Shown here: positions 9,195 through 51,253 of the stretch, piece by piece | How positions within the stretch are numbered: the first letter of the stretch is position 1 | Layout: the number at the start of each line of letters is the position of its first letter | From: Ceratodon purpureus | Taxonomy: Eukaryota; Streptophyta; Bryopsida; Pseudoditrichales; Ditrichaceae | Direction: 5' to 3' | DNA length: 64,000 nt | Assembly: GCA_014871385.1 (NCBI GenBank) | Contig: CM026427.1 | Coordinates: forward strand, 9,244,344 to 9,308,343 | Made by a program: the position numbers and the translations under genes | The notes under the pieces: generated by a model | Told to the model about the DNA's origin: nothing | Database searches by the model: none | Seen by the model: the letters and a program-made list of their open reading frames with translations, nothing else

Positions 9195-9261
9195 CTCTAG
9201 AAGTTAGCTTCGCTAGTCTAGGTTGGAGCTTAGGAATGAGTTTCTCTGTTTCACAGAGAAA

Positions 9262-15566: not shown

Positions 15567-15863
15567 ATATTCCAACCAGGTTAGTTCCTTCTAAATGAAA
15601 CGAAACATGGAGAGATGCAGCAATTTCCAAGTCCAATACTAAAATATCAATCACACATCCACCTGCTGGTAACCTCGTGTGCTATTCAAATCATTTCCGG
15701 AACCTGAATTGCAACGTGTATGAAGAAACAGGTGCGTGTATAACAATTCAAAATGATTTAGTTTAGATCGGTATTTAAATGTGCATACTTATACACGATA
15801 GAAACATATAAACATCGATTCCACGTTTCATATATGCTAAGGGAAGGGTTTTCAATTAATCCC

Positions 15864-22954: not shown

Positions 22955-24234
22955 GCTCCTCGCCCAACCTCAAAACCGCCGCAAACCTCCCACAGCTTCC
23001 AACTCTCAACTGCAATCAACCATTTCAACTACACTCAGCCACTAAATGGGCAACACCCAACCCCAACAGACTCTGCAACAGCAACCTAGAAGCCTCAATT
23101 CACATTCGCCTGACTCACAGCTGCAAAAATGCAACCACAAAAAGACCACCTAAATGCTAAACCTAATTCCATGCATAGCTTCAACATCATGACCAAACAC
23201 CGTCACCTCTACACAGCTACTGAGATTACAACTAAGCCATAAACACTCACCTCAACAGTTATGCGAGGCAATGCAGCGAGCTCCTCAGATTGTGAACACT
23301 AGAACCATAATCAAGGCACACAATCTTCAATCAGGAACGGCGAGAGACTCACAGGAAGATGATGCAAGCGCTCGGCTCCGCTAAAATGACGACAAAATGA
23401 GCGATCAGGCGGTAGTTTATTCCAATTTCCAAACTGACTTGACGGCATCGTATCCACAGACTCTGTATGCCATCCAATGCCTGGTATGTGCCAATGAAAC
23501 ACAGATTCTTCGCCGCCTGAAGCTCGTTGAGGACGTTGTAAAATTGGGTGGGTAACTTTGTGGCGGCGCTTGTTGTCTTATTAAATAGATTTGCAATTGG
23601 GTGATTCATGTTTTTCTAATTTCCCATCTTCAATTCCTACTAATGTCAGTTGGGTAACCAAATAGTACGGTTGTGATATGACGGTTCTTCGGAATCTTGC
23701 AAAGCTTCAGTGGATTTTTCTTTGCTTTTTTGACACATCTTATCAGGGAGGCAGTCTTTGCTAATTGCTGTAGATCACAATGGTTCAGCGGGGACAACCT
23801 TTGAGCTTCCGGAGAGAAATTTCCATGAATTCTGCCAAGAGAAGAGGTATATGCATTGGCCATATTCCTGTAATTCTTATCATTCATATCATTTCTGCAG
23901 AATTGTTCTTGTTGCAATTCAGGTTCCAGGAATGATAAGAATATATTTTTCTAGATATGACTGGCATGAACGCACGGACCACTTTTCAAGTCAAATGTTG
24001 AACATCAATCACATCCACAGGTAATTTGTAACCTCGCTTACAATTCTTATCATGATTCCTGGAACCTGAATTGCAACGAGAACAAAGTAGCAACTCAGAT
24101 TGCGACGAGCACTCTAGAAAAACAGGTCATCATAAATAATTCAATGTACATCACGTTACATGGATAAAAGTGTGCAAAAAATGAGAAGCTTCCACTTCAC
24201 AGATTGCCTCCTAAGATAAGCAGTTTCAAATCCT
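22955..24234. other. Intergenic, DapF 5' side to CAD copy 2
   Basis: Probably holds the DapF promoter and leader and the 3' flank of CAD copy 2. An open minus frame at 23349-23609 has no similarity. An inverted repeat at 23908-24080 is listed separately. Confidence 0.4.
23908..24080. repeat. Inverted repeat with 37-bp arms, shared with CAD copy 1 flank
   Basis: The left arm TTGTTGCAATTCAGGTTCCA (from about 23908) and the right arm, whose plus strand reads TTCCTGGAACCTGAATTGCA (about 24055-24074), pair over about 37 bases with a loop of roughly 100 bases. The right-arm sequence GGAACCTGAATTGCAACG also occurs near 15699-15716, downstream of CAD copy 1, so it was there when the CAD block duplicated, or it is a mobile repeat. 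Confidence 0.6.
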
Positions 24235-25930
24235 TCACTCTGGCTTCAAGGATTTCTCAATATTCACCACGAAGCGGTAATGAACATCATTTCCCATCAT
24301 GCGTTCTATTGCCTTGTTCACATACTGGATGTCCACTGTCTCTATCATTGGCACTACTCCCTTCTCTCCGCAGAAATCAAGCATCTTCTGCATCAGTTTC
24401 ATCCCACCCACCGAACTCCCCGTGATGTACTTCACTGCAAAATCGCCATTTCAACTCTTACAATTAGGACGATGTCATGCTTATCACAATTCTATCACTA
24501 GCTTTGCAACGATTAGGATAAAACTGTAGAATGTGTCAACAAAAAGATGGTAGCAGGCCGAGAGAACATACTGTCGAACAAATTAACTGGGCAGAATTTC
24601 AGTTCCCTTGCTGCTCCAACAAGCACAAGAACACCGTGGGGCTTCAACGCGCGAAGGTATGGATCCAGTGGAATCTCCGCTGATGCTGCATTGATGAAGA
24701 AATCAAACGTGTTGGATAAGGCCTTCATGGCTTCCTCGTCTTTACTCACCACAAATGCGTCTGCTCCAAGTACACCAAGAGCTTCTTCTTTCTTCGAAAC
24801 CGATGTACTGAAAACGGTCACATGGATTCCAAATGCCTTTCCAAACTTGACCGCCATGTGGCCCACTCCCCCCAACCCAATCACGCCAAGCCTCTTCCCA
24901 GGCTGGTTCATGCCATGGCGAATCATGGGAGTGTACACCGTAATTCCAGCGCAGAGCAGAGGAGCCGCAAGATCGGAAGGCAGTGAATCCGGGATCTTGA
25001 CAACATACCTGAAATTTGAAACCAACAAGCCATTGTAAATGCTGCGTAATCAACAGCATGGTGTGCTAACTGAGCAGCCATATCCCTACATCTGTCCATG
25101 AAGGTTCCAGGAGTCTGAATTTCTCACCGCTGGTCCGCTTGCATGAGGTTGGAGAACCCTCCTCGAGTAATCGTGCCATCAACATCTATGTCATTGAAGC
25201 ACCTTGTGCGCCGCGTTGTACACCCATCTATTCCCCCCTTGCATGAATCACACTCCTGGCATGTCATGGCGCAATATCCCATTCCTACACGGTCTCCGAC
25301 TTTATATTTCGACACGTTCGAGCCTACCTCCGTCACAACCCCAACGATCTCGTGCCTGCGACACATGGACAGGCTCACACATTAGGAATTCAAACCATCA
25401 GCCGCCAAAACCCTAGAAGCCCCCAAATCACACCACACTCCAAACTACAGCAACTCTCTCGAAGTCTTAATCTCAATTCAATCACGAAATTCTTTTCTCA
25501 GCCACGAAATACATAAGCACGATCAAAGAGAAATTGTGTCTAGACAACACTCACCCCGGAACGACGGGGTACATCACATCCCCGAGAAAATTCCTGGTCC
25601 ACGTAACCTCCGCATAGCACACTCCACAGTGGGTGACACGAAACACCACATCATCCGGCCCCGAGTTTCTGCACTCCAACAACAACACTCCACTCGTCAT
25701 CTCAAGCACTAGAAACCACCTCAATCACAAACCCACAGCTTTCTGCATGCATGCATGCATCCAGCACCACCATGGCAGCTCCTGGCTCCCCGCCTGCTCC
25801 ACAACTCTGATCTCCACACAACAAAACTCAAAACTCTGACTCACCTGCGCTTGAACTTGAAGGGCACCAGCACTCCCTTGGGATCGTGCGCTGCGTATCC
25901 ATAGCAGTCGAACCCTTCCTTGGGCTCCAT
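24235..25930 (-). CDS. Cinnamyl-alcohol-dehydrogenase-like zinc alcohol dehydrogenase, copy 2
   Basis: Paralogue of the gene at 15864-17619, also 354 aa in five exons (25845-25930, 25555-25668, 25128-25355, 24572-25008, 24235-24434) with exon lengths identical to copy 1 (86, 114, 228, 437, 200). Zinc ligands and the cofactor loop are unchanged, and the same Tyr-Ala-Glu follows the first zinc Cys, so the unusual active site predates the duplication. Differences include [12 protein letters not shown] and TTRRTRCF in the structural-zinc region, [13 protein letters not shown] in exon 4 and NYHYRFVV-type changes in exon 5. Introns differ in length (176, 199, 119, 137 against 159, 239, 109, 184). 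The C-terminus is EKSLKPE in both. Full length and apparently functional. Confidence 0.93.
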
Positions 25931-28199
25931 AGATGTCAACGAAATGCTCCCCACCTTTGTTATCTAGAAACAGAACTTAGACTAATATTCAAATGATCCC
26001 TACAATAGATCTACACAATCAGCTATTTATCTGAGCGAAGAAACTTGTGCATGGCTCTGAACACTGGAGACTGAAACGTCTATTCAAGGCTCTGTAACAC
26101 CACCATGTCGAGCATCCCCATGCGATACTAAGTTAGAGCGCCCCCATACTACAGCACTGTTGATGAGGAGCATCGATCACGAGTCTGAGCAGAGACACGA
26201 AGTGCGTTAGGAAGACGGCAAGTGGACCGCGCCAAACACTAATTTGGACGCAGGTCTACCCTGGGACGGGCCTCAGCTCAGCACCGAACCCGCCTGAGAA
26301 AGCAAGTCGAGGCCGGTGCCCGCAGCTTCCGCTCGAAGGCAGGAAAGAGCCGCTTCCGATGGCAACACCTTCAAGGGATCAAATCGTCATCTGCACTGTA
26401 ATCAACCGACTGTAATATTTAGTAACACTCCACTCGAGCTAGAAGCAACTATGTCGAATATCCCAACCACATGCATCGATCTAGTGTAGTTTCCATCGGA
26501 CACAGACGCCGTACGTGTGCTCGAGCATGCATGCAGGCGATCGCTGAACACCTGGCTTTCTAGACAATCGTCTAGACAGAGAGAGAGTCGACTCCGAGAG
26601 ACCGGCGTCGACGTCGATCTAGACGACGGCTACATGTGTCCAGACTGCAGCGATTCCTTTTGCTGTTCTTTTTCATGCATTCGAGTTTCATGCATTTTCA
26701 GGTCGAGGCACCTAAAACCGATCATTTAAGAGATTTTCCATTGGGGAGATTTTTCCTTGAAGGGGAAATAGGTTTAAGGAGGAATGAAACTTTAAATTTC
26801 ATGTTTACTTCAATATTAAATTTACTACGAATTTTTAAAGCCATTTCTTTTGTAATACATATAACCGATATGTACCCACCTAGAACTGACCACTATGACA
26901 CCAAGACACGATCATTGTACTACTACCAAAATATTCTCATATGATTCCCTTTTTACCAATCATGCTTGATACTTTCTTCTAGATCTCTCAAGATTTTAAA
27001 TCTGAAAACTTGTTGGAATTGGAGAAGTCTAGGGGGGAAGCACAATAAAGTGTACCAAAAAAGTGCTCTGCTCATTGTCCATTTCAGCCCCTATCGCAAA
27101 GACATAAGAAAGTGGCATCTCGATTGTTGGTATGTTGGGAAGAAGTATGGGTTTAGAAAATAGACTTGATTCTCTAAAGTGTGGGAAAATATGGTATGAA
27201 TTCGTGTCTTCTACAATGCTCTACGAGAAGCTCAAAGTCCGACAAAGTGAATGTCCAGATTTGAAAAAGTGATAAGAACGATGTCGAATGTTGTCGGAAA
27301 TCACTTTTGACTCCACCGGGATCTCCGTTTGTGAATTGCGGATGTATAAATGGCAATGACCACTTGAAATGAAAGTTTGGGTGCACGAGAAGTATTTCAA
27401 GGACGTTTTCGGGACACGGTCGTTTTGGAAACTTTTTGGGGTGTAAATGGAAAATATTGTGACATTGGAATATGTTTTTGTGAACATTTTCAAGATATTG
27501 ATATCCCGGGAAAAAAAAAAGTGAAAAAAAATAAATTACAAAAAGGACATTTCACTTGAAATTCACAATGGAGAAAGTGACAGTGAGTTCCAAGTGCCCT
27601 GGGTGAGTGCCACGTCGTAACTGGTAGTTTAGCAGTTTCATGGGAACGCATTGGTTGCCTCGAAATAAGGGTGACGTCGCTCGTGCGGAGACGCAAATGC
27701 TCTTGTCAAGAGAAGGTACAACTATCTCACAGTCGACACTTGGTGGATGCAAATTCAGAATCTGAATTTCGATTCTTGCTTTTCCCGTTAATCAGTCTTC
27801 TGTAGGGTCTGGGCGATGGAGGCTATGGGAGTTCAAAGTGTGAGGGGGAGTAAATGTGGTGCATATGTACGAATATTTCAGGGAAGATGCTGGGTTAGAT
27901 AGGAATATTTGCAACTGGAGCAAAAAAACGTCGATGCCTACTGGTTGGACGATGTAGAGTCCCAAGACTGCACGACGCCGGGTTCCGGGAAAATTAAAGA
28001 TCTACTGAACAGATTAGAGCGAGAGAAGCCCAAATGAGTCAACGTCGGTGAGATTTGCAGCAACTCCGGGGCGGAGAAAATCAAACTCTTGGTTGAACGG
28101 GAGAGGAGAAATTCGGAGTGCATCGTAAACTGCAGCGACGCAGAGAACACCGGGAACAGATACGGGTAAGGAGGGTCAGAATATACTTAGAGAGAGAAG
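25931..28199. other. Intergenic, no gene recognised
   Basis: A short GCAT microsatellite lies inside CAD copy 2 intron 1 (near 25745-25760). At 26555-26630 there are short palindromic CTAGAC/GTCTAG and GTCGAC motifs. The rest (to 28.2 kb) has only short frames with no similarity. Confidence 0.35.
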
Positions 28200-28520
28200 G
28201 GTTTAGGGTTTAGTACATTCAATCGGATCGAGGACAAGAACAACTCAACGCAGATGTAGCGCTCCGTCGGCGACGAACTCACTTGGTCTATTCCGAGTAT
28301 ACAGGTAAATCTGCTATTCTCGTTTTTTAGGGTTTAAGGCACGCTGCATGTGGGCAAGAGTTTTACAAGATTGTAATGCTGTGCACAGTGATTTCCCGTA
28401 CGACAGTTGATTTTCATATTGCGTGGAATTAGGTTTAGGGTTCGGGAAGAAGCGGGACACCAAGAGGTGGCTTGGCGGAGCTTGCAAAGGAAGAAGGGGA
28501 CATTGTAAGTTAGTTGCTCT
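28200..28520 (+). promoter_or_regulatory. Telo-box-like GGGTTTAGGGTTTAG and possible transcript start region
   Basis: GGGTTTAGGGTTTAG at about 28199-28213, and TTAGGTTTAGGGTT near 28430, match the plant telomere-type motif that is common near transcription starts of plant genes. A donor-like CAG/GTAAATC follows at 28305. This may be the leader of a transcript reading towards 31 kb, but no protein is established. Confidence 0.35.
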
Positions 28521-31057
28521 GATGGCGACTTGTGAAGAATTGTGTTTTTACGACAATCTGACCTAGTTCTCCTGGTAAAAATGTTTCAATTCTACACAGG
28601 CAAGCTTGGTGTGGGGCATTCCACTCCTCTATTGATTTTCTTTTGGAAAAGTTCCGGTTCAATATTCATGGCTATGGACTGCACATGCAAGTTCTTAACG
28701 CTGCTGAAACCACAGAATGATAGTCCTGACAGAATTCATTATTATGTTGAAATTCTGACTCAGGCTAGTTGCTTTTAATCACTTTATCTCCTTCTCTGGT
28801 AACACGGAGTTGTTTAAGGACGTGGTGATGCCTCGAATGTTCAAATTTCAAATGCAAATGTGAACTCTGATTTTTTTCCGCGTTCAATGTCTCTTCGAAG
28901 TGTAGATGCGCTTCCTTTCGTTAGGGCTTTGTCGATGTTGCGTGCCGTGGGTTCCTCCCTATTGGATTCCCTTTAAGTCACGAAAGTCGCTTTCATGGCA
29001 TTGGCTTGCCAGGGTATTTTGGTGACACTCACCATGATTTGGTTTTGATCATGTCTGATTCTGAATGCAAGCCCGTTTTCAACTATTTTCCGGAACACAT
29101 GAACTTGTCTTGTATTAGCTGTTCTCATTGAACTTCGAAGCTTCCAATGTTGTGGGTCTTGAGTACTGTATATGTATGTGTATCGGTTTGTCGGATGCCC
29201 AGTTGGTATCTGGTGGTAGGATAAGGGAGTTGAACAAGGTTTTATTTTGCTGCATTTGTGGCTGCCAAATTAGGCTTCCTTTCGTGGCTTCCCTTGCGCG
29301 AATTTGTTTATTTACACCAGTTCGAGCAATCAGTTGGTAGATTGTATGGCAGTGATCTCAGAGCGTGCTGGCTTCTTAATGAATCTCTTCTGTGTCGTGG
29401 TGCAGGAGATGAAATGACCAGAGATGAAGTGATCAAGGATAAGGTGAGGGACTCTTTATTCTGCTGTCCTATACATGCGTTACTAGTTAGGTTTTCAAGC
29501 TTCGCATTTTGTTTGTTACCCTAAACCTCTTTACATCACATGTTGAGCGACTCGGGATGATGGAAGAGTGAGCGAGTTTGTGGAAGAAGTCTGTCGGTGG
29601 AATGCGGACTCCTTAAGTATTTACCAGCGTTCTAGTTATCCTTTAGAGAAAGTATAATCAGTTTCTTCTTTTTGAGAAGAACATAAGTGAGAGTAGTAGG
29701 AACTGCTTACTTTTATTGTTAACTTCAGAGAAGCTTAATTTCTCATGGGATCAGAAACGCTGGCATGTAGAATAGTAGATTGAATACATGTCGGGCACCA
29801 TGCCTTTTTCTATGAATATGTTCGTAAGAGTGAGCTTCCATAATGATTTGGGTCCTCGTCAGTCATTGCAGAGCACGTTTAAAGACTGTTTTCAAAGAGT
29901 GGCTTTCTTTCTGGAATCGTTTGGGCTGCTAAATGTGCCAGCGTTAGGAAAAACTGACGGAGTGACGATGTTCTGAAAGAACTACACTTTCGTATACGCT
30001 CTCATCCTCTTCTCTTCACACATAACTTCGTTGAACTCAGCCATTTCTCTAGCTTGGTAGGACAGGGTAATGCCACTTGAGCCGTGACAAACTATATTGA
30101 CAGTACAGATTTGACGTCAGGTGATCACTGCGATTTCTAATTTGAAGTTTACTTGAATTTTTACATTCCCATTCTATTATTTCTGAATTCAGTATACTTC
30201 GTTTTACCATTATTTCTACTTTATCAACGACCAACATCGAATATCCCAGGATGCACATAAATAATTTTTGGGTGATCTTAAACTACTTCTGTCTGCGTTA
30301 TCAATTAAGATTAGCTTTTAGTTGGTTCCTCTACTTTTGTCATTGCTTGTCTAATTCTTGTCGTGTTTTGTAGTTACGATGCCCACAATGCCGAGGATAG
30401 AGTGGTCAAAGACATGGAGTTCGTGGTGAAAGTGGTAGTGTTGTCCGCTGCTAGCGTTGGTTACCCTTCCTACAGGTATAATGCTGGTCCCTGGAGTATC
30501 GTCTTTGATGGATGAGTATTGGACCTGGTTCAACGCCGCTGTTGTAAATTTCAGTACTTGACGCTAACTTCAGCCAGTGTCTATCTATGTGTCCTGCAGG
30601 TTTCTGCATCTTCGGCAGAAATGAAAAGGGATTGGGGCAAGGATTTGCATCTTGGTGTATGGCAATTCACCGTCTCAGCTTCTCATTTTCGCCAGAGTCC
30701 TTCAGGCATATATTTTACAGCTGTCATACTAGAGAACAATTTCGATGCCACAGGACGGTCTTCAAAATTAAATACTTGATAGTGCGCAGGGGCCACTATC
30801 AGACCTAACAAGCCCGCCATCGTCACAGACTCTGTGAAATTTAAACTTTATTGCGCAGAGTGTGTGAGTATATGAAGGGAACTTTGAAGTAGAAGTACTG
30901 CATATTGACCTGCCTCAGTCATTTAGTGTTCAGGGTTCTGGGTGGACATGACAGACTCCATTAACTAATGATTTGTAGGTACAGGTGTCATGCAGGAGAT
31001 CATGGTTTAGGGGTAAGGGAATTCTGGTGAGGCTTTCAAACGCCCGTGCCCTTGGAA
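28521..31057. other. Upstream region with small exon-like pieces
   Basis: Short frames bounded by acceptor and donor signals occur at about 28440-28503 (reads GGLAELAKEEGDI or, in another frame, FGKKRDTKRWLGG), 29406-29442 (DEMTRDEVIKDK) and 30375-30473 (YDAHNAEDRVVKDMEFVVKV). They do not join into one clear frame and no family is recognised. They may be 5' exons of the gene at 31058, a separate gene, or chance. Confidence 0.25.
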
Positions 31058-34000
31058 ATGGGTAGTCAGAAGAAGGCACGTGCAAGGGCAACGATCGACA
31101 GACGGCGGGAGCTTCGATTGGAGGCTGAGCGGCGTCGGGAAATAGAGATCTTGGAGGAAGCTGAGCAGGAGCGAATCCGCAAATTCAGGTGCGTGCTTTG
31201 AGATCTATTTTACCAGGGAACTTCAGGGGCAGTGCATAAAGTATGTGGACTGTTCTAATCTGCGCGGAATTTCTCACTTCGTGTCCGGCTAGTTTGAGAC
31301 TGTAATGCTGGGGGGGAACAGTGCCTGCACTGTATACGCTACAATCTACGATTGAAGACTCTTCCCTGAACAGGGCTGAGCAGGAAAGGGAATATCGCCG
31401 GACATGGAGACGTCGCTCAAGATCAGATGAACAGGGGGGCGGTCTCCAGGACGCTGCTGGAGAGGGGCCTTCCGGGGTGGAAACCGAAGGTGAGCCACGC
31501 AGCGAAGAGCATCAGAACGAGGAGGATGACCATGGTGGGCGTGATAGATTTGAGGAACATGATGGCGGTGTGTCAGGCGGGGAAGAGTCCCAGGAGGAAA
31601 ATCTTGTCGGGACACAGACGACAGAGTCCACGGGAGCTGCTGGCGATGGGAATGAGGGTGACGGAGGGACGCTACGATACCGAAGGTGTAGGTGGGCTGC
31701 TTCAAAAGGAATGAATCACCTCATGCAGATCCTGGATGCAGGCTTCACTCAAGAGGAGAAGAAGAGTGTGTTCCGCAGGTGCTTCTCCGACGAACGCGTT
31801 CGGGAAATAGACCCGCAGTTGTACATGGCTGTGCAGAAACTGCGCAAACAGGCTACCACAACAGTGGAGAGTTTGAGGGGGGCGCTGCAAAGAATTAGAT
31901 CCACAAGCATACGAGGCAAGTTGAAGGTCAGGAATATAGTATTGACGGCAGCTGTCTCGCAGGGCGACTCTCAACGCAGGATATGCAACGCATTAGGGGC
32001 GTCCCGATATCTTGTTCGGAAAGCATTCTTACGGCGTACCTCAGTTGACGAAACTGGGGAAAACCTATGGGACGGGGGGGACAGAAAGCGGCGACGCGAT
32101 GCGCTTAGTGCAGAGGACCAGTCCGCTGTATGTGGATGGTGGGAGACGGAGACGACAGTGTCCCCTAACAAGCGAGACGTGAAGAGACGTCGTGTCGGAC
32201 CTAAGGAGCACGAGAGTCATCCAACGCATTACTTGCAAGTGTCACAGGTAAAGAGCAATCTGGGGTGAGTGCTCGCGGTTTTTCAAGTGAAACAGTCGGG
32301 TGTCCAGGGTGCTTCTTTAGAGTTCTAAATGCTTGTTTTTCGGATGCCTGACAGTATTGACGTAGTGTGACTGAATTCGTGCTCCTGTTTACGGGTACCG
32401 AAGGCGACAGTGACGGTCCTGCATATGCGATGTACGAAGCCTGCCAGTATAGTTGCCGAGGTAATTAAATGGTGCAAGAGATGGCGTGATCGTCCGAGGT
32501 GGTGGGAATGACGCTGTGGCTGACGTAGGCGTAAGATGAAGCGTGTAAGGATTGAAGTTGTTTATTGCCCGGGTTTAGAATGTTGGTTGTACGTAGGAAT
32601 GTAAGTACAGTAATTGACGACGGAGGCTGTTGAATATTGCACGGTGTTTGGGGAAGGTAGACGGGATCGCAAGGTACTTATGCAGTGTCACATGTGATTG
32701 CCCTTCGTTGGTTGTACAGGGGAAGAGAAGGTTTAATGTCCATAGCATGTGAGGGTGCTCAGATGCAGATTACATTTGCCGTAGCTAACAGCTGCATCTT
32801 AGGGGAATAGTGGGGAAGGTACACGAGAGGCATGACGAGGTCAGGGTCGGACTACAGCTCTGTGCTTTCATGAGATGAATGGGCGACATTTCAGAGTGAA
32901 CTCTCGGAGGCACCTCTTACGTGGCACTTTGAAATTCCGGCGCTGAAGACTTCGTCTGGGACAACCGGCCATGGATTCAGGCTGTACGTTTTCTTTAGGC
33001 ATACAGTGTCATACAAATCTCGAGGTGTATAGTGTCATACGTTTAGAAGTTTAGCTTTCAATGAGAGGGGTGTAAGTTCCTAGGTTTACACATGAAAGGA
33101 AGATGCGGGACTTGTGTTACGTGTTTTAACCCACTTACAGTATCTGGCTCCTTCGATTACAGAATGTGGTTTGTTTGTTAGGAATAGTAAGAACGTGAAG
33201 TGATCTCTAGTTGGAGAGTATACTGACCCGGTTGCGTGGGCAGGGGATTGCAATGCATTACACTGGCTATGGGTCGATATGGGCACAATCTGATGCGGTT
33301 TCTGTGCATGTGTGTGAACTGTCAGTTAGAGTTCCATGCAAGGTTCAGGGAGGCGAATGAGGACAGTAGGGTGGGGCTCAGAGCGTTCGAGATGCTAAAG
33401 CCCTTCTACGTAAGAAGGCTGAAAGAGCGGAATACGTGTGCGTGCCGCTACCACTGTGAGATTGCTGAACTGAGGGTTGGCTGGAACAACATGAGGACCG
33501 CCACGAAGGGGATTCACGGCCGGCATTGTGGATGCGTTTGCGAGGTGTGCGTGAGTCCGGTTACTATGCAAGCATCAGGGGTGGACCGGAGCAGCACGTG
33601 TCATGCAGATCTTTGCCACTTCACTGGGGTGACGGACATGTGGCACAGCGTGTTGTGTCCGGTCCAAGCAGATGGATGGCACGCTCCAGCATGCATCAAG
33701 GGGACGTGCGAAGTTTGTGGAGTCGACATGTTACAGCTTTGTCCAAGGGAAATGGACGATACAGAACCGCTTATGGTGCAGTGGCATAATTTCGAGATGG
33801 TGGTCCATGGAACATCACGAGCAGGGAAAGAGAATAAGGTTATGAGGATGATGTATCAGAGCACAGGGGCGCCAACATATGTGGGGTACCTGAAGCAGAA
33901 ATTGGGGACGTTCATAGTCCACAACTACATTGCCAAGTGGCAAGCAGAGCAATATAAGGTCAGCATGGATACTTTCCCTCCCGACTCGATTTTGTCTGCG

Positions 34001-37000
34001 GTTGATTTTGCGGAGAACTACACATTCCAGCCGTACCAAGAAATCCAATCCATGCATTGGCTTCAGCATCAAATAACGATACTTGTACACATCTGCTATA
34101 GATGGAATCCCCTATACCTTGCAGACTCAACCTCGGGTGCTCCAAAGCTTTTGACCGAGTACCATTACTATATAAGCGACGCACCGGAGCATGATACACT
34201 ACTGGTTCAGCACTGTTTTGCGTTGCATTGGAAGCACCTCACCGACAGGGGAATCAAGCCCAATGAGCATATAGTGTGGTCTGATGGCTGCGCGGCACAG
34301 TTCAAATCACGGCGATGCTGGTATCACGTGTCAAGGTATGTGCGCACCATCCGAAGAAAGGGTTCACCCCGTTGTTCTGCATTTCGGTCCATGGCAGTCG
34401 CTGGTGCACAGCCTGAGTCGCTGAGTGGCCGAGTATGAATTTTTTATCTTTTAATTTTTTTATTTTATTTGCGGAGTCGTACTTTTATGACTCCGGCTGC
34501 ACCCTGTTTCTGGCGAACCCAACTTCGCGGCAGTTACATACATGGCAACTAAATTAGAGTACTGGTAAGTCATTCAAAGTGAACAGTGCCGCGTTAGCTA
34601 GGGATGACGGAACTAGAGGGTCAGCTGAATTGAAACCTGATTTTAAATAGTGTGTGCCTGTGCCAAGACGTTACTGGTTCGTGGATACGTAGGTAAATAT
34701 GCATCATGTCTGGACTTCACAAGCACAAGGTAATGGGCATGTTAGTATCCGTTTTTCTTTTTGAAGTTCTCATTGTCTCCTGCTTGCTGACTCGGTTTGC
34801 TTCCACTCGGAATTTGCTTGTCGAGGCTGCAGAAATCCTTCCCGCATTTAGGCAGCGTTCTTCTGCTCTTTTCACTGCGTTTGGCTTCGTGACTCCGAAG
34901 GCTCTCTTTCACTGGTTTATTTAAATTCTATTTGATCAAGTCCCGCACTTCTGTCGACCGCTGCCTGTCAACTCTGATTGACGTTTTCCTCTCGGGTTCT
35001 ATCGACTCTGTCTCACCCTCGCTTGCTGTCTACTAACTGTCCATTTGGATCTTCTTCTTTCCCGCTGACTTGCTAATAGATGTTCTTGTCTTCTGTTAGG
35101 GGTGTTTTGTGGATGGAATTAAGTCTACAGATAGTTGGGTCGTTCAGCAGCTTATTAGCAAATCGAATGTTAGAGAGGGTTTCAAGTCCGAGACTCAGCC
35201 TCATAGCAGTTATTTTATATTTCAACTGTGCTGTACTCGTTGGTTAAACTGGTTGCGATAGTAGCCTAAAGTTACTGTCTTAAAGCTTGTGATGTATCGG
35301 CATTCGTGACTCTGCTTTTCGGTTTTTTAAGAGGGACTCGATCAGGTGAAAACTGTGACACTGCAACCACAATTATCCGCCGATTTAGTGTCAAAATAAG
35401 ATCTGAATTCTTGTCTACTGAAGCATCTGCAGTAAGTATCTCGATTTTGAGGTGCATGACAATGGCTTAACCATCGATTGAGTTCTTTGAGAAGCAGGAG
35501 TACAAAGCCTCATATTGCAGAGCTTAATCAGTGTTCTAGGATCAGTACACAGAGGCACAGCTTCGCTGGAATTGGGTTCCTTCAGAACAAACAGAAACTC
35601 GACTCAGTAACTTGTCTCTCTCTTAAATTTTGCAGGATCTTTTGATTTGAATCCCCTCTTGCTTCATATTTGACGACTGAAACTCTCTCAGGAAATATGT
35701 AGTGTAGAATGTTTGCCTCTCTGTTTGAGCTTAGAGGTCGAAAACACTGCGTTCAGGTTGTGAATGTCAAATGCAGAGCTTTACCCTATCGCTAAGAAGC
35801 CCCTCTGTGTAAGATTGATATAGAGCAATATATGATGCGATGAAGAACAGATCAGCATGAAGTCTAACATAGCATCTTGATTCTTTACCGATTTGTAGTA
35901 TGATAAATGCGACGATTCTCCTTGTGCAGTAGGTCCGTCATAATCATGTGTGGTATTTTTGGACTGCTCGGTTGTGCCAACCATCTACTTGATCTATTGG
36001 TTGTGCCAGCCAATGGGTCAACCAAGAGAAGACTGAGTCTGACCCGGGACTGCACATTACAGATAGTTCAACAGGTAGTGTACCTTCCAATGACGGCCCT
36101 CACTTTCCCTGTCAGCTGGTTATCGCTTGCTCTGCCGCTTCATACGTGCCGCGCTAGAGCCATCAGTTTCAAGCACATAAAGCTGTGTACTCTTGGCTGT
36201 ATATAGGTTGAGTAGGTTCGTTGAGCATTTCGTGTTTGTTGTGCCGGCAAACAATTGAGTTAGAAAATGTCTGGTCGAGTGTGAGAATATTGCCAAGCAT
36301 TCTTTGCAAGTAATCCTGCTTCCTGTAGTATTGTCACCCTTGATAGCACCCTGAATAGTGGCACCATTTAACAGGTGTAAATGGGAAATGTTCTGCAAGT
36401 GCAGGTATCCGTCCACGACAAGGATGCCGGGCTTGCCGAATGGATGCAGAATGGTGTGGTCTTATTTTGGCAGTGGCCATGGCAAGGGGCTCCATGACGG
36501 AGCAGGAGCGATGCTCAAATGTGCTATCCGCAAAGAAGAGATGAATTTTGAGTCTAGGACTAAGCTGCAAACTGCAGCGGATGTAGTGAACTTCTGTAAC
36601 CGCAAGGAGCAAGAGGAGCATCGCGCATATGGGAACGTGAGGAGGACTCTCATTCGATATTTTCATCTTATTGAACCAGATTCCGTCGACAGAAGTCGGG
36701 ACCTAGACTGTCGGCCTGTAGAAGGGACCAGATCTGTACACTCAGTGTCGTCGGTGTCTCCTACGAATATCACCTACTTGCATATAAGGCAGCTTGCTTG
36801 TTTCTGTCCCGAGTGCATGGATGACAACCCCATGCTATGTGCAAAACAGGAACATGTGCGACATTGGGCCCTGACAGTGTTACAACCACTAACTCCAATT
36901 CCTGTAAGCTACTTGCTTTCAGTCCCCCGTTCGCTTACCATTGTATGTTGTTATTCTCCGATGGTGATGACCATGGCCACAGTCAGGTTCCAGCTAATTC

Positions 37001-37720
37001 ATTTTTTGTAAACCCCATTGAGGTTAAGTACGTGCCACGTTGTGGGGAATGACGACGTATTTCATGGTTATTTTGGCTGTGCTATGCATGTGTATCACTG
37101 TGCAGGTTGCAGGCACAGCAACGCGATTTCAAAGAGCAAATGAGCATATTGGAGAGTCATCAGCTTCAGCAGAAAGTAGGGATTGCACAGTTGAGGTGGC
37201 CGGCACTGAGTTGGGATGGCGTCTACCATCTGCGGTCGACGGACCGCCAGAGATTCACGTCTCACAGTTCGTTGATGATCTAGTTGACGAGGGCGAGGAC
37301 GAGGCGGATCTGGAATCAGAGGCTGAGCGAGTGGAGACCGGGGATACCTATGTGGTGTACACTGACCGTCCTGAGAATGGCGATCGATTCTTTCTGGTGC
37401 TATGTGACATGCCTGTGCACAACAACAAAGCCACGTTCACAGATGGTTGGGGTTGTACGTGGGACAAAGACAGTATGCTCATAAGCGGGACATACTACCG
37501 GCGCCTTCCAAGTGTGGGCCGTGATGCGGGTTCATACAGGTATGAGCTTCTGGAAGATGAGCCAAGAGCATGGAATTACTCCCACCTCGTGGTGCAATCG
37601 AGGGTGGAGTTGTGGCAGTACAAGAGCAACAAGAAGAATCCACGCTTCAAAATGTCGGCGGAGACGAGGGAGTCCATTCTGTCCAATGTGGAGGAGCGGC
37701 AAGCGTACAACGCGCACTGA
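31058..37720 (+). CDS. Large DDD-type transposase-like protein of the DFAENY family (domesticated or autonomous)
   Basis: Five exons are supported: 31058-31188, 31374-32247, 33326-34335, 36405-36903, 37106-37720; phases agree and give 1042 aa with no stop. One small exon could still hide in 32248-33325. The order is an Arg/Glu-rich helix (RRRELRLEAERRREIEIL), an acidic region, a possible helix-turn-helix (SQRRICNALGASRYLVRKAF), a Cys/His-rich part (NTCACRYHCEIAEL, HGRHCGCVCEVC, GTCEVCGVDMLQLC), then three blocks typical of one unnamed eukaryotic family: SAVDFAENYTF (Asp562), EHIVWSDGCAAQFKS (Asp655) and YFGSGHGKGLHDGAGA (Asp703). The three aspartates in this order suggest an RNase-H-like DDD nuclease, which is inference. 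The C-terminal exon (GDTYVVYTDRPENGDRFFLV, WDKDSMLISGTYYRRL) looks like a small beta-rich reader-like domain. The 2-kb intron 34336-36404 holds a dispersed repeat. I recall similar hypothetical proteins from bryophytes and invertebrates; function is unknown. Confidence 0.75.
35218..35540 (+). repeat. Dispersed 320-bp repeat, copy A
   Basis: Lies in the large intron of the DFAENY gene. It matches 55771-56095 on the opposite strand at roughly 80 percent by eye, including the exact block GTGCATGACAATGGCTTAAC and the flanking CATCGATTGAGTT. It is non-coding. See copy B. Confidence 0.8.
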
Positions 37721-40700
37721 TAGACACTGGTGACGTGCTGGGACACCGCCTGCCGAGGGGTTTCAAAGTCGTCACGGGTTGGGGCCGGATATGCTAAGGG
37801 GGGTGACGTACGCGAAGTGTATGTGGCTTACGTGAACCAGGAGAAGGGCACTTTGGAAGGGAGCCCTAATACGGTGCACGCAGGGAGACCCCGCGAACAT
37901 AAAGAAGTCATAGTTCTGTCTGATTGATCGATGTTGCACACTCTGGAGAAGGGATTGTCATCCAGTCGAAAATCTTGGACCATTGCTTCTCTTTGTCTGA
38001 AACTCATAATGTTATAAGTTCCATACCTGTTTTGGATAGAACTCTGGGTGGATTCCGTTGCCCACTTCTGTGATGTAAATCAGCGTAGGGATTACTCATT
38101 CACTTCGCACTGGTGGCTCTCATGCAGGTAATTCCCTCGGTATATGTTGCCGATAATTCTGGGTGACATTGAAGACGGGATTTCTATGCTCTCTATGCTA
38201 ACTGCTGTCCTTGCCTGCCTGAGTAGAAGTTATGTACGGTTACGGAATATGTGACAAATACTCGTGTGTATGGTTTAGTAGCCACGGTGAAATCATGCTT
38301 GCAATTGGGTATTCTCTGAAGGAAATATATTTCTGTGACACCAACTGCTATGGAAGGAGATCGAAAGTTTCAACTGCTTGTGTGTGAACTTAGTGACTTA
38401 TGAATTTCTCTGCTTGAAGTCCGCCTGATGTTAGAAATTCGACGCTGTGTGAACCATGAAATTGCAATAAGCAATGACGTGAGAGAATAGATAAAGCAAC
38501 AGTACTTGGAGAGAACATTGAGGAGCTTTTCTGAATGCCTCTGCCTAATGCCATCTCATGGTTTACATAGCGTGGAGTACGCCAGACGAGTGTGCTACTT
38601 GTAGGCCGTAAGTATTTCACATGTCCGTTTTGGAGAAATTAAGGGCAGGTGATCACAATTGCCTTCGGATAATGATAATTTGGTTAAGAAGGACCTGTTA
38701 GTTGTGTGTTACATGAGCGACGTGGAACATGGGCTCCTCGTGTATGATCATCGAACTGGTGATTTGCTGCACGCACTCGCGCTTGCAATTGGTTCGGTAC
38801 CTCAGATACCACCGCGATACCAAAAGATCCACATTTGTTTTCTAGTTTCACAAGCTCTCTGACCCCGGGAATCATTTCTCGGTGTGATATGAGTACCGGA
38901 ACCCCTGAAGTATCAATGCTAAGGGAGACCACGCTCGCGATTCTGGAAAGGTCATTGTTCGAGACTTGTCAGGTACAGATTTTGTTCCTCTAATGTAGAT
39001 TTCTTGCTTCTGGAAATTTGTGTGAGTTCTTGGCTGTTCAGTCGTTCTTCCATTGCTGAGCTACATCGTTCTTTTCAATGTTTTACGACTCTTCAACTCT
39101 GTTGTGCTTTTACGTTCGTGTCCCTCAAAATTTACCGAGGGAGCTATTCGAAGTGGAATTCTCACTAACTCAGAACCAGCCATGGACCACAGTTTCTGAC
39201 CTTATGCTAGATAGAGGGATTCGTGCCCAACTGGTCAGGAGGTCACAGCACTCTTGAGAGGACAATTTCACCGTTTGAGAGGACTTAGTGCGTTCCTTGG
39301 TTGCTTTCTTCGCAAACAATTATGGTGTGACTGCACTTTCTCGAGCTGGGGCGATGATTCCTCAGTCTGGAATTGCGCTGATTTGAACTTCAGCCATCGG
39401 ATTAATGGCTCAGTTTGAAGACTTTGTATAAGGATTGTCCAGAATATGCAGTGAAAGCGCTGGCTGGACTACTGACTACTGCACCGACTTCCGACGAGGG
39501 GCGCGGCTTCGATACGAAGTTCTGAAGCTGATCGGGGAGCGGGTTATCCAGGTACAATACGATGTGAAAACTGGAGCTAAAATGTGATGCTGTGATGCAT
39601 GATTTTAAAACGCAAAGGATCTACTGCAGAACGTGCAAAGGTGGTACTGCTGCCTTCGAGACCCATGTTTGCTATGCTTGGAGGATTTTAGGGTTCTGTT
39701 GTCAGAAGAAGCGTGAGATGCAGCATGCTCGGTACCTGCTTGGTTACGTTTCTCTAAAACTGATGCTAGGCTAAACAGCTTTGAAATTCAGGCAAACATG
39801 GTAAATTACCTTGTGTCTCCGCGGGATAGAATGCATGCTTCCTCATTACTTCTTAGGACACAATTAGGGTTCAGTTGAAGAAAGGGTGCCCACTGAATTC
39901 TTCTACCATCTCCGTTACATGACCGAGATTGTGAACTGCTGGATTGATGTCGATCATGTTAAAACTATTGTAGATGCTTGGCTAGCCCAACACGAAACAG
40001 GATACCCCGCGGATGCCGGTACGTTACTCTTGTTCCAGTATGAAGTTCTCTGCTTCAGATGTAGTCGTTCGTGGTGACATGAATCATGAGGTCTATAGAG
40101 ATTTAGTGACGTACTTGTTAAATTACCCTTCCGAACCCAGGCGGGTGGAAACCACTTCGCATTGCTAGGCCTTCTGGTTGTTTGTTAACGATTACTGTTG
40201 CAATGGACAGTTCGATCTGTTGGTTAAAGAAGAGTTGCAGCATGCTTGAAAATGGGGTGCGTATTCTCGGCGAGGAGAGGACGGTGTCTGGTGTATGTAC
40301 GCTTGTTCAATACTTGGCATGTTCACATGGATTTTGATAAGGTACAACGTTTCAGTTGTTCTTTATTTGTGTTCATTGTTTCTGTATCTCATAGGAGTAA
40401 CATTGTTCTCGGAATCATATGGGACGAAAGCAGCATGCCTGCCCATTGCAGTTAACTGTTTCGCGGTTTCCTGCAACGACTACAGTTCACCTGGGTCGAA
40501 GATTCAATATTAAAATGTAAAATATGAAAAATACCGATATGTAAAAATACCGAATTTCAACTAGGCAACTGGCCGGGTACTAATTATTATTGAGAGCTCG
40601 AAGTTCTGCTATCCTAGGGCCGCATAGCGTAAGCACTTCATTCTCTCCTTCGCAGTGCTCGTGAGTCATGACTCCAGCTCTGCTCCAGTGCTGAAGCGTC

Positions 40701-40875
40701 ATCACTCACCTTGCTGATAGTGGCAGAGTGGACTAATTGGCTGTACTTGCGTTTTGAATGGGTCAGTGTTATTGCTAGGATTTTAGCAGTCACTGGTAAG
40801 CATCTGGCATGAGTCGTCTTAAAGCGACTCCTTCGTTCTCTTGTGGTGGACGTACTACAGAGCTTTCCCTCCGAT
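37721..40875. other. Intergenic, nothing firmly recognised
   Basis: About 3.1 kb. A short frame just downstream of the DFAENY stop (VREVYVAYVNQEKGTLEGSP, to 37927) may be a former C-terminal extension. The rest has only short frames without similarity. The missing first exon of the mitochondrial carrier was looked for here and not found. Confidence 0.35.
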
Positions 40876-40904
40876 CTGATGTACGGTTGTAGAGTCGTCT
40901 GAAG

Positions 40905-40945
40905 CTCAAGGTGTGTTCCAACTTATCAAATGTGGCGCTGCCCCT
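40905..40945 (+). repeat. 41-bp direct repeat, copy 1 (before first visible carrier exon)
   Basis: CTCAAGGTGTGTTCCAACTT and the following 21 bases match 43976-44016 at 39 of 41 positions. In copy 2 this is the end of exon PEYLK plus its donor; here it sits upstream of exon LLSGG, where the start of the gene should be. Confidence 0.85.
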
Positions 40946-43900
40946 CAGCTACTTTCTGGTGGCATCGCAGGGCCGTTCAGCAAAACATGCACTGCCCCAC
41001 TTGCTCGGCTTACTATTCTTTTCCAGGTGTGCATTGCGTATTTTCAGCTAACAATGATTTAACGAATATCATGTTTGCTTATAATCTGGTATTCTGTCAT
41101 AATCCGGAATAGTAAGGATTGTTCTTTTGGCATAGACACCTGAACTCAGGATTGGAGATCTTGTCTGACATTGATGACTGCGAAACTTAGGCTAACGCAT
41201 GTTGTTCTAGTATAAATTCATCTTAAAGTAAACTCAGTTCATGCCGTAAAGAGTTCTGAAATTTTGATGTGAAAGTACCTGAGAGTTCAATGTTCTGCTC
41301 TTTACACGCTCACATAGTTACTTCCTTGCTGGTTGCATTGTTGATGGTTTAGGTTCAAGGTATGCGAGCACATGCCGGCGCTATGATGAATGAAAGTCCT
41401 AGCATTTTGAGAGAAACCAGGCTAATCTTCAAGGAGGAAGGCTTTAGAGCATTTTGGAAGGGCAACGGGGTAACGACTGTTCATCGACTCCCGTATTCAT
41501 CCATCAACTTTTCTGCATACGAGCAGTACAAAATGGTAAGCAATTAGAACAACTCAACGGTCCATATTATACGCTGCTGAGGTTAATGGTAGTTTATGGA
41601 TGTGAATTGGTGAACGTGTGTTCATGGACTCCCTTTGGCTACTCCAGGGGTGTGAGCGATGGGTTTGTGGTTGGATTAATCAGCTGTGTTATCCACTTTA
41701 CTTTGATAATGTGCTTCCTATATCTGTGCGCATCCACGATTTTATTTGCAAAGCTGATGACACGCTCATTTTATTGCCAGCACTTAAGAAGGATCTTGGG
41801 CATCGAAGGCAATCAGGAAAGCCTTCGGGTTGGAATGAGTACAAGGTTGGTAGCTGGTGGGGGTGCTGGCATTACAGCTGCGTCCTTGACCTACCCGCTA
41901 GACCTGGTTCGCACGCGCTTGCCTGCACAGGTGAATCTTACTTATCAATACCACGTTCGGAGTTTTAATAAGATATTGGTTGTAATATATCTTGAGTTTC
42001 GGATGACCTCATAAAACTAGTGCCACATTGCCGTAAAGTGTATGGTTCTGCCCGAATTTTTCTCCGAAGTAGAGTATCATATCGCCACATTTTTCTGCAG
42101 CTCGCTTGAGGATGCTTCGCTTGTTTCTAATTTACTGTTTCTCTTTGGGTGCATATGTAGACGACGGAAATGTATTACAGGGGCATTACTGACGCTCTTG
42201 TGACTATCACTCGCGATGAGGGCTTTCGTGGTCTTTACAGTGGCTTGGGACCCACACTTATGGTATGGCCACTAAGCTTTCCTGCAAGGGCTATTATTTG
42301 ACTCCTTTCTGACTATACAGTTGTTTAGGGTATATTATTTTCAAGATTGCATACCAGGAAGCACTGGATAACATCTCAATGATGGTTTCAACAATGAGCA
42401 GTTGATAAATTCGTCCACAGATGTGACTCCTGACATCATAAAAGCACTGGTTGTATTAGTCTGCTCCAAGCGTAGGGCAATTGCGTCAAAGTAGGCGACT
42501 AAGGGTATTATAGAAATGCCAACCCAAATATCACCCTCTCCAACACGGAGGTGTTGAACTATTTTGGTAGTTGTAGGAAATTCTGAGAAGCCCTCTCCCC
42601 GTTCTCTTTATATTAATGCGCTAAGCGATATTCGTATAGGTAATTCTTTTAATGCTATAGTTGTCGTTGAGAAAACCCTGACGATTAGCCTGCTGATGGG
42701 GAATGCGGGAACGCATGACATGCAGGTATGGGGTCGGTCGGGCATTGCTGAAGAGTTGTGAAGTCGCATAATCTTACAGGGTGGGGTTCCAGCGATGCCC
42801 AACCGACGCTTGCCCATGTGCAAAGCCAGGTAAGTAAGAAGAGTTACATTGTACTCATGTAGCGGGTGGGGTTTTGGCCGTGAACTGCGTGGTCGCTGCT
42901 TTGAGAGAATCGACTCACTTGGATCCCAGATGACTTAGTTGGAAATTTGGACGAGGGGCCTAAGTTTTCAGATCAGGAAATGATTATAAAGTAGGATAGC
43001 ATGTACCAGGTACTATCGGAAGACGTTTTGGAACGCTGCATGGCGGTATGAGATTAAGGATGCTATGAAAATGAAGTCACTTAACAGTTCATGTGCATCG
43101 ATATGGTTTTCACACAAGTGTTACTCTACTTAGTGGTTGTCCTGCAAAATAACTCTTATCATCTGGGTGGTTATAATTCGCTATGCAATCAATCCGAATT
43201 AGTGGAAATTTGCAGGAACTAAAGTTCTGGCTCGTCTTCAGCTCATTTGTTGCTCACTCTTTACTTCAGGAGTTTTTAGTGTTGGGAATCATGGAAAGAT
43301 GTGCTTCTAACAGGGTTTTACTTTTGGTGACAGTGTGTTCGCCCGAACATCGCTATCAATTTTTGTGTTTATGAAACTTTGAAGTCGATGTCGGTGGCCA
43401 AGAGGTATTATTTAAGCACCCTTGCTTCAAGACGCATGTCTTTTCAGTCCATCACGGCTTTCACTACATTTCAGTGAAAAATGAATCTCGTATAATCAGT
43501 TATGTGCTGAAAATTGTATTCTTTTGTTCTGTTTACTAGCGGCTTAAACGATGATTTGTGATTATGCAGTCCGGACTTGTCACCTGTATTAGTCAGTCTT
43601 GCTTGTGGTAGTTTTGCTGGAATCTGTTCATCCTCAGGTATGTAGCAGATCAAAAATATAACTCCTGGATTTCATCACTATTCATCTTGCGTATTGTAGT
43701 CATCCCTGTTATTCATGCTTTACTTGATGAATAGTCATGTTGAGCTTGCAAAACAGGTTAAAAGACATTTTTGAATTCAGTGGTAAATATAACAGCGTCG
43801 TTGGGGTTTGATCTGAACAGCAACATCTCCCATTGATCTCGTAAGGAGGCGAATGCAGTTGGAAGGAGCCGGGGGAAGGGCTCAGGTTTACAAGTCGGGG

Positions 43901-43975
43901 CTTAGTGGAACAGTTAAGGAAATCATTGCGAGAGAGGGACTGTTTGGTCCTTACAGGGGGATTTTTCCAGAGTAT

Positions 43976-44016
43976 CTCAAGGTATGTTCCAACTTCTCAA
44001 ATGTGGCGCTGCCCCT
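43976..44016 (+). repeat. 41-bp direct repeat, copy 2 (exon-donor junction)
   Basis: CTCAAG is the end of the carrier exon at 43821-43981 and GTATGTTCCAACTTCTCAAA is its donor and intron start. It is the probable source of the copy at 40905-40945. Confidence 0.85.
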
Positions 44017-44402
44017 CTATCCGCTGCATCTTCGTTGTTGTTTTGGATGCTTGTAAATTTCTGATATTGGATGACCAGTTTAGATCTGAAGCCCAATTTC
44101 GGGCATTCGCGTGCAACGATTCTTACTTTACAACTTGTTTTTCTATATAGGTGGCTGCAGGGCCCGTGCTAGAATCAACCATGTTTCATGTTTGCGGTCC
44201 TTTTGCTTTGGCTCATGGTGAGATGTTGATGGACTCTTCGCATCGACCCTGTTGGTTTTCTTATTCAGGCTTCAGAAAGATATCGTCTCAGAAAGTTGCC
44301 AGGCCTTCCCGACGATCCTCTCGAATCGGTGGAAAGTATGGCCTACTTCGAAACTTGCAACAGCCGGAGCCAGCCACGAAGAATAATTTTCAACATATAT
44401 AG

Positions 44403-45480
44403 TGTACATATTATTCGGATTGTGCTTTTTATACCAGGTGTTCAGTTCCGCACAGATAATGAGCCCTTGAAGGTAATAGATCATTCTAACAGCGTTCTCC
44501 TGAAGCCTCTTCCATGTTTCATCAGATAATGTTTTGAGTGAAGGATGTTTAATTTCGTGAGCTGCTAATTACGTACTGATAAAAAATTATTTAAGTTCTT
44601 GGAACTCAGATGCTGAAGTTTTGAATTCAATCTCCAGCATCACCTTTTGATGGAACCTGTCGTCTCACCTGTGGCTGGGTGAGGTTTTTCAAATGTCTAA
44701 GTTCAACGGCATGGGATCCACCACTTCACGGGTTGCCTTGTAGTTAGAGACTCGGAGATTTGTCGAGAAGCTCGTCTTCAAGCCCAGGTACATTCGTCTC
44801 CATCGTATTCAATCGCCAATTCGTACGAGAGGAGAATATGTTTTGCAACGTTTTGAAAATGTCATATCTGAGGAGCATCCTCACAATTTGTTGGGTACTC
44901 TCTTCCCAAGTGCTTATTAATTCTGGGTGACTTGGTGTGTTCTCTAGACTGGTGTGGACAGCGCCAGCTGGAACGCATACACCTCCATCAATTCGTTTGC
45001 GATTTACTCTCCCCCTGCAACCACCGTGAGTTCATCAGCCGTCTCAGATCCTGAATAAAGAATTTGTTATCTTATGAGCTATTCTCTTAGACGCAAAGTT
45101 TTTCTACCTCTTCTATTCTTTTACCAGAAGACATCTTCCTTGAACTCTGCCTTGACATGTGATGTTTATGCAGGTTGAAGGCCCCGCACTGACGAGCGGT
45201 GGATTCAGTCATTTCTCTTCGCCAACGTACACTTCTGTACAGGTGCGGGGGTTATTGAAGTCTTTTTTCATAAGTTTCGCAATGTTGTAGGTTACATTAA
45301 ATCCCAGGAATTTGCCGTGCGCTTAATCTACGAATTGCTTCAGTGAACATGCCATTGAAAGCACGAATTGCTGAATTGTAAAGGATGATCGCCTAGCTAC
45401 TTCCCGGACACCGCTGTACACTGTGCCCGCTGATGAACAATTGGCGTACTGCCCAATAGTTTCGACCTCCACTGACTGGT
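44403..45480 (+). other. Possible small exons of unknown gene
   Basis: Two short frames with splice signals and compatible phase: 44944-45027 (TGVDSASWNAYTSINSF) and 45175-45241 (VEGPALTSGGFSHFSSPTYT). Ser/Thr-rich, no family recognised. They could be 5' exons of the B3 gene at 47359 or chance. Confidence 0.2.
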
Positions 45481-47358: not shown

Positions 47359-48311
47359 ATGTCCGGAAACTTCGAGAAGCTGATTCTGGAGGACCTCGAC
47401 GAGGCCGCAGCGAGGTACTTCACAATTCGGATTGCAGCGAAGAACAGTCCTACACGTCTGGTATACCGTCCACGCGAACATGTAGTTTATAAGCCTTGTT
47501 TGAATTCAGCTGAGTGTAAATTTCTCTAACTTCCCCATGTCTCCTCCACTGTGTCAGGAGGTACCGGCTGATTTCACTGAAGCAACGGGATGGCCCGGAG
47601 TCTCGCAATGCTTTCTCCTCACATCAAGCCGCTCACGGACGGAGTGGCCTCTACAGATGACGCAACTCTCGTCGTCTACATGTGTGGGCACAGCGATTAG
47701 TGACAGCGCTGGCTGGCTGAAATTCATGGAGCACATGCCCGTCTCAGTCGGGGACATCCTCTGCTTCGAAATTGTGGATGAGCGAACCCTTGTGGCGAGC
47801 ATTGCCTACCACCGAGGTCGTCCTCCGCAGATCGCTGTGGAAGAGCCGCAGGTGGTCAACGTAAATGCGCCCCACTTCAGGAAGAAGCTCCGCGCCTCAC
47901 ATACCCGGCCTCACAAATCGGCGCGCCTGGTGACTCCCTACCTACTCACAGTCTTGAATTCGATGGTTGCAACGAGTACTACGTTAGCATTTAAGGTTAC
48001 CCTTTATGGGTTGTGTCTTGTAAAGCAGATTGGCTCAGGGATTGACGTTCTCTGTTCTGTTGTGGCAGGACATTCCCACCTCGTTCTGGCGCTCCGTTGG
48101 GGCAGAGAAGTTCGACGGTAGCTTGCTCACACTGTCTGGTCCTGTCCGCGAACACGTCGTCAAGAGCGGCATGTGCGTCACTGCGAAACAGACTTTCTGC
48201 TTCTTCGGCATGGGTTGGTCGGATTTCATCGCAATGAACGACCTGAAGATCGGGGATACAGTTCTATTTACAAAGGTCACCGAGTGCCGGTACGAAGTGA
48301 AGAAGGAATGA
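47359..48311 (+). CDS. B3-domain DNA-binding protein (two B3 domains, REM-like)
   Basis: Plant-specific nuclear transcription factor type, 260 aa in three exons: 47359-47460, 47558-47995, 48069-48311, all phase 0. First B3 domain (residues about 18-125): ARYFTIRI, then VPADFTEATGWPG, QCFLLTS, SAGWLKFMEHMPVSVGDILC, FEIVDERTLVASI. After a basic linker (HFRKKLRASHTRPHKS) comes the second B3 domain (about 165-258): TTLAFKDIPTSFWRSV, LLTLSGPVREHVV, FCFFGMGWSDFIAMNDLKIG, DTVLFTKV. Both domains keep the GW..F...N.L..GD..LF pattern of the family. The start is the first ATG after an in-frame stop and gives a sensible acidic N-terminus. Proteins of this REM-like type are often lineage-expanded; target DNA is unknown. 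The gene sits in the motif-dense right half yet shows no lesion. Confidence 0.82.
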
Positions 48312-50671: not shown

Positions 50672-51253
50672 TTACATGCGCTTGACACGCTGATCCGGCG
50701 TGACCCACACTGTCTCCAGCAACTCCAGCCCATCTCCTGGGACCACGTGCACTTCGACCATCCATCCGCTCATGAGGAAGGCAAGCAGGGAGTTCAGCTC
50801 GGAGTTCAACAGCTCCCCCAAGGGCTGGGTACGAAGCCTCAACGACAGGGGGGTCGTGAAGGACCACGATTTCCTGAAGACCGCGACGGCGGTGTCAAAC
50901 TCCGCCAATCGATTGCCCCGGCGTTGCAGGAGCCAGTTCCTACCGGCAACAGGCAGATGAAATTTGCGCAGGGACGGAGCAGCGCGCAATGCATTGTACT
51001 CGAGCCGGGACCTCATCGCTGCGTTCCACTCCTTCGATAGGCACGCAAGTTTTGGGATCAGCTCCAAGAGCAGGCTGCGATTCACGTTCAGCCGATCGAC
51101 AGCAACCCAGGGATCTGCGGGAGCAGAAGCAAACTCGACAACGTGATCAATTACAACATCGCATGCCACAATGTCGAAGCACCCTCGTTTGTTTCTCGCA
51201 CAAGCAACGATCCATTTAAGGTCAGACATCTCCCCAAAAACTACAACGACCAC
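50672..51253 (-). CDS. Hypothetical protein, possibly F-box-like
   Basis: Uninterrupted frame of 193 codons; the start may be MVVVVFGEMSDL (51253) or the internal MSDLKW (51229). Contains a Leu-rich helix LLLELIPKLACLSKEWNAAM that recalls the second half of an F-box (L..IP...CLSK.W), then LRTQPLGELLNSELNSLLAF and a C-terminal WMVEVHVVPGDGLELLETVW. No second exon was identified, although a donor-like AAG/GTATG follows the stop. The family is not recognised; the F-box idea is weak. It may be a lineage-specific gene. Confidence 0.45.
   Translation of the reverse strand: MVVVVFGEMSDLKWIVACARNKRGCFDIVACDVVIDHVVEFASAPADPWVAVDRLNVNRSLLLELIPKLACLSKEWNAAMRSRLEYNALRAAPSLRKFHLPVAGRNWLLQRRGNRLAEFDTAVAVFRKSWSFTTPLSLRLRTQPLGELLNSELNSLLAFLMSGWMVEVHVVPGDGLELLETVWVTPDQRVKRM

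Follow-up and report, generated by a model that had tools for sequence, protein, structure and literature searches.

The window, by which is meant the whole 64,000-nucleotide stretch of moss DNA analysed here (C7:9244344-9308343 of a 362.5-Mb assembly), carries at positions 31058-37720 of its forward strand a transposase-like gene whose five exons join in phase, with GT/AG at the junctions, to encode 1042 amino acids and a stop. Exon 1 (31058-31188) makes an in-phase join to exon 2 (31374-32247), which is followed by exon 3 (33326-34335), containing a Cys/His-rich region and the aspartates D562 and D655, by exon 4 (36405-36903), containing D703, and by exon 5 (37106-37720), which supplies a C-terminal domain and the stop codon. 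A preliminary description of an open, lesion-free gene of five exons and over 1000 codons is thereby borne out, since its junctions (31188/31374, 34335/36405 and 36903/37106) fit the in-phase model and the three aspartates fall in the blocks it had pointed to, D562 in VDFAENY, D655 in SDGCAAQFK, and D703 in GKGLHDGAG.

Splice sites were compared across copies for intron 2, donor 34335, acceptor 36405 and donor 36903. The best junction for intron 2 is 32247/33326, connecting HYLQVSQ with LEFHARF; all 17 fetched close copies have GT and AG at the equivalent bases. A second open option is 32264/33244. Donor 34335 is likewise conserved in 17 of 17 close copies, and the two exon 4 sites in all 16 that are readable there, while among four divergent relatives the intron between exons 3 and 4 is present in one and the two exons are fused in three. 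The model is least secure at the beginning of exon 5, since in most copies DNA similarity picks up again only at 37265-37284. Exon 3 has at least 122 matches in the 362-Mb genome, at about 118 separate places including the window's own (a lower bound, 120 of 1072 candidates having been scored, with three places split among the 122 matches). The 11 best of these have no in-frame stop, and later ones, many of them on C6, often do. With silent change far exceeding replacement change among the copies, these matches establish that the gene is real, far beyond chance.

Downstream lies a B3-domain gene (47558-48308, + strand; possible start ATG at 47360), provisionally modelled with two B3-like domains and at least one intron. 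The B3 DNA-binding domain is best known from plant development. Pfam places B3 at 48060-48308 with E=4.5e-7, just above the cutoff, and the first domain falls below it. In a copy on C10, frames downstream of the transposase match window positions 47555-48305 at 31-44%, the second part giving a Pfam B3 match with E=4.2e-9, and a B3 relative also follows a C5 copy; none was found in a C11 copy up to 8.8 kb past the transposase stop. As a query, the B3 gene finds at least 150 places in the genome, some of which are surely host genes. At least 29 of the 122 listed transposase matches have a B3 match within 20 kb, 28 of these downstream (20 on the same strand, nine on the opposite one). On large contigs the figure is 26 of 116, against a mean of 1.8 and a maximum of 7 in 1000 random placements, tandem or duplicated copies being counted separately and neighbours possibly sharing one B3, so that independent events are fewer. 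The other 93 of the 122, many of them fragments, have no B3 match within 20 kb among the places listed.

A third open reading frame of about 186 amino acids (50672-51229, - strand), with no Pfam match above the cutoff, lies inside a stretch whose conservation is one of DNA; about 30 places carry the DNA around it at 73-99% identity, and ten of these follow a B3 match at a distance of 2-3 kb or so. An exon of a mitochondrial carrier (41448-42011, + strand) lies within the stretch shared with a C1 copy described below, which suggests captured host DNA. In two other copies (L068 and L069) a receptor-kinase-like fragment, as translated by eye, is common to both upstream of the transposase gene and is possibly another capture.

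The remainder of the window is of mixed content. Two long frames at 345-4123 (+) resemble a MULE-type transposase by eye and end in a SWIM-like Cys/His motif, with no Pfam match, and pieces of a Copia-type retrotransposon (gag and the Pol beta-barrel domain) lie at 7836-9203 (-). A flavodoxin-fold exon, presumably WrbA-like, is found at 14287-14886 (+). The stretches 15837-17056 and 24211-25394 are diverged copies of one another (82%), the second with a zinc-dehydrogenase exon recognised by Pfam, and an exon at 63341-63853 (-) matches subunit A of DNA gyrase/topoisomerase. An inverted repeat of 85% identity links 35236-35542, in intron 3 of the transposase gene, with 55771-56074 at the far right of the window.

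Terminal repeats, target duplications and copies

The element in the window begins at 27032 with GGGGGGAAGCACAATAAAG. Its left terminal inverted repeat (TIR; 27032-27093, + strand, inner limit approximate) starts GGGGGGAAGCACAATAAAGTG... and is preceded by TCTA. The position is set by the nearest copy, C1:9739820-9721519, which shares 18.3 kb (window 27032-45355, + strand) at 98.6% identity up to an N gap on C1; identity sets in exactly at 27032, and the DNA before it is unrelated. Two C5 copies open with the same end, GGGGGGAAGCACAATAAAG (or ...GCATGGTAAAG), as do L071 and one C3 copy, and every one of them has its own flank. For the window copy, no right end was found up to position 64000. 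The best score of a right-TIR search in the window was 36, where shuffled sequence reached at most 34, and was taken as noise, and a repeat scan of 28-41 kb, a range that excludes the left end at 27032, detected no TIR pair. A second copy, C1:7133848-7141031, shares 48300-55300 at 98-99% identity, a stretch that does not reach the right end of the element. This sister at C1:7.13 Mb, with 99% identity to the window across 48300-54910, carries a match to the end pattern 36 kb beyond its B3 gene, which makes C1:7169861 a candidate right end, and the window copy may therefore extend past the window. Another candidate right end, the edge after ...AAATCATAA in four further copies (the B copies, three on C3 and one on C5), was rejected because the three C3 copies share their flank, and further because the C5 flank starts CACTACTAGAAA, which we take to resemble a CACTA end.

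A genome-wide count of a 26-base pattern of the end gives 516 forward and 499 reverse occurrences, against none for the reversed pattern used as control. Among 100 listed end places (C1 and part of C2), 25 adjacent pairs less than 45 kb apart are convergent. Eighteen of these measure 735-753 bp, forming a class of about 737-bp miniature elements (MITEs), and three enclose the transposase gene between inverted ends, 26 bp of end having been checked for each: C1:599579-628067 (28,489 bp), C1:11275497-11313395 (37,899 bp), which also holds a B3 match, and C1:20940215-20950728 (10,514 bp). B3 places were entered for the C1 pairs; the six pairs on C2 are all shorter than 750 bp. The flanks of ten chosen pairs out of the 25 were read, and a 4-bp duplication was present in nine (TTGT, AAGG, TATT, TATC, CGTG, GTCC, ATTT, GCCT, AGGA), including all three gene-bearing pairs. 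A 737-bp element at locus L059 likewise has the two ends, as inverted repeats of about 57 bp, and is flanked by a duplication TCCA; the length of the target duplication is constant. The comparison of flanking terminal repeats that the preliminary description had called for thus finds TIRs and 4-bp duplications around copies of the gene. Two candidates were set aside: the tenth pair read, of 24.3 kb, is not a simple insertion, its flanks being inverted and free of duplication, and at L065 the repeats that had suggested a direct-repeat (LTR-like) element are the left ends of two neighbouring copies.

These data bear on how the gene and the ends belong together. An element with GGGGGG ends and the gene could be two unrelated families joined by insertion, as insertion of such MITEs close to copies of the gene does occur (L059) and no right end was seen for the copy in the window. 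Yet in the window, in two C5 copies and in L071 the left end stands upstream of the gene and is oriented alike (its inner part also in L072), the same edge recurs at distinct sites, and three complete pairs with duplications enclose the gene, which largely excludes such nesting; we regard it as very improbable. Somewhat less so, but still improbable, is that the gene is a passenger in elements moved through these ends by another protein. Giant elements often carry extra genes (the consulted part of PMC12477816), and only three TIR-bounded gene-bearing elements appear among the listed places, all on C1; against this, all three are flanked by 4-bp duplications, and the gene has a conserved DDD triad. 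The B3 protein is not the common factor, since the 10.5-kb and 28.5-kb elements have no B3 match among the places listed.

Movement has been recent, given near-identical copies: starting near the stop codon, the four B copies are 99.7-99.97% identical for 3.6-3.8 kb, although local duplication may have contributed to the near-identity of those on C3.

Conserved aspartates, selection and relatives

In 21 loci fetched as copies or relatives, D562 and D655 are conserved in 21 of 21 and D703 in all 20 that are readable, the sequence of L061 entering N at that position. Three conserved acidic residues are what characterises a DDE/DDD transposase, and the absence of homologues with the three aspartates, which had been named as grounds for abandoning the assignment, was not observed in any readable locus. 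In three divergent relatives, whose identity to the window protein is 36-41% across exons 3-5, the triad is retained along with the Cys/His-rich region, and the C-terminal domain can be aligned; searched alone, the exon 5 part finds matches in two of four divergent loci (E<=1e-3). Recognisable as it is in relatives, the C-terminal domain has no Pfam match. A Pfam scan of the entire protein likewise gave no significant match, its below-cutoff names being DUF4326, which recurs below the cutoff in two of four family members scanned, and two weaker ones at chance level. A search of the PDB returned a single match by sequence (E=0.72) and none by profile. Averaging Chou-Fasman propensities over four sequences puts strands ahead of D562, D655 and D703 in the RNase-H order, but the helix expected at D703 is not seen and strand and helix are mixed at the position of the first helix, so that the pattern fits only in part and weakly suggests an RNase-H fold.

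The suggested dN/dS comparison yielded a median of 0.085 and a maximum of 0.099 in 24 usable pairs (synonymous distance 0.05-1); the window copy and its nearest copy, with dN/dS 0.13 at dS 0.010, have diverged too little for use. Taken by themselves, low dN/dS and an open frame would suit a host gene that is merely transposon-derived and under selection. Low dN/dS in a multicopy family is equally expected for a transposase selected by its own movement, however, and a domesticated gene is at odds with many copies, near-identical at different sites and in some cases provided with both ends and target duplications. We accordingly give domestication hardly any credence: with at least 122 matches and this median, the gene is mobile and multicopy rather than a single domesticated copy. 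Of the two origins proposed in the preliminary description, 'young and mobile' or 'domesticated', it is the first that agrees with the copy number, the near-identical copies at different sites, the inverted ends with 4-bp duplications and the purifying selection. That description was right about a mobile DDD-like gene, its HTH-like N-terminus and reader-like C-terminal role being putative, and it overlooked the MITEs, the ends of the element, the third reading frame and the B3 gene.

Relatives outside the moss were sought in collections that do not include animals. None was found in viral contigs with three queries, and none was confirmed in bacterial and archaeal contigs; 46 pattern matches in prokaryote records were collectively taken as chance. 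Uncharacterised invertebrate proteins presumably contain the related blocks DFSENYSF, SDGAASQYKN and HGKGPCDG, and an approximate segment of this kind can be aligned to the catalytic region (27% identity) so that the three aspartates fall in register, which makes these proteins a lead.

Proposed mechanism and comparison with known systems

The conserved triad, together with TIR-bounded elements that hold the gene between 4-bp duplications, supports the assignment as DDD transposase-like, and we estimate a probability of roughly 0.86 that the gene is the DDD transposase of a giant Sola-like cut-and-paste DNA transposon with which the MITEs share their ends. Such a transposase would bind the element ends through its Cys/His-rich region, and an RNase-H-like core with D562, D655 and D703 would cut and join DNA with a 4-bp stagger. 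The linked B3-domain protein may help by binding element DNA, whether as an end-binding partner or as a regulator, and the MITEs of about 737 bp were probably moved in trans. In its 4-bp duplications, DDD triad and large size the element would work like Sola.

On this reading an unnamed conserved gene becomes the likely engine of an element with defined ends, a target duplication, short relatives and recent copies, and a mobile-DNA family that had been overlooked is opened to direct testing, as the activity of a defined element can be assayed with the MITE as substrate. A recurrent linkage of B3 and transposase would amount to the use of a plant DNA-binding domain by a transposon. The family is named in no title or abstract opening found in the open-licence literature.

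Several known systems offer partial parallels. PIF/Harbinger elements have two genes, for a transposase and a Myb-like DNA-binding partner, a 3-bp target preference and a different transposase; the moss element similarly pairs a transposase with a separate DNA-binding protein, but its partner has plant B3 domains. KDZ and CACTA elements differ in transposase motifs and in duplication length, that of the moss element being 4 bp. According to the part of PMC12477816 consulted, giant KDZ and EnSpm/CACTA elements often exceed 10 kb and reach 30 kb or so, carry accessory genes and occur in organisms whose haploid phase is long, and to that extent the moss element is like them in large size, accessory genes and host. 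The moss element also has a bearing on the question why such organisms carry very large transposons.

The Sola superfamily (Sola1, Sola2 and Sola3), in a description said to date from 2009, reportedly combines a DDD transposase with 4-bp target duplications. Both are found in the moss element, a likeness to Sola by description. For Sola2, the consulted portion of PMC3627910 gives 4-bp AT-rich target duplications, a preference that the moss element does not share, as its duplications are not limited to AT-rich (AWWT-like) sites. For Sola-1, giant elements that include an accessory gene are reported from the brown alga Ectocarpus, one of them 21.5 kb long, in the consulted part of PMC12477816; unlike the moss element, Sola is not credited with a B3 partner in the consulted parts of PMC12477816 and PMC3627910. 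The family may belong to Sola, and there is a fair chance that it forms a separate lineage. Only tentatively would we go further and propose an undescribed superfamily or deep lineage of its own, in which the autonomous form of a giant transposon combines an unnamed DDD transposase with a B3 protein recruited from among plant transcription factors and with a third conserved gene, and supplies the transposase for the many MITEs of the moss.
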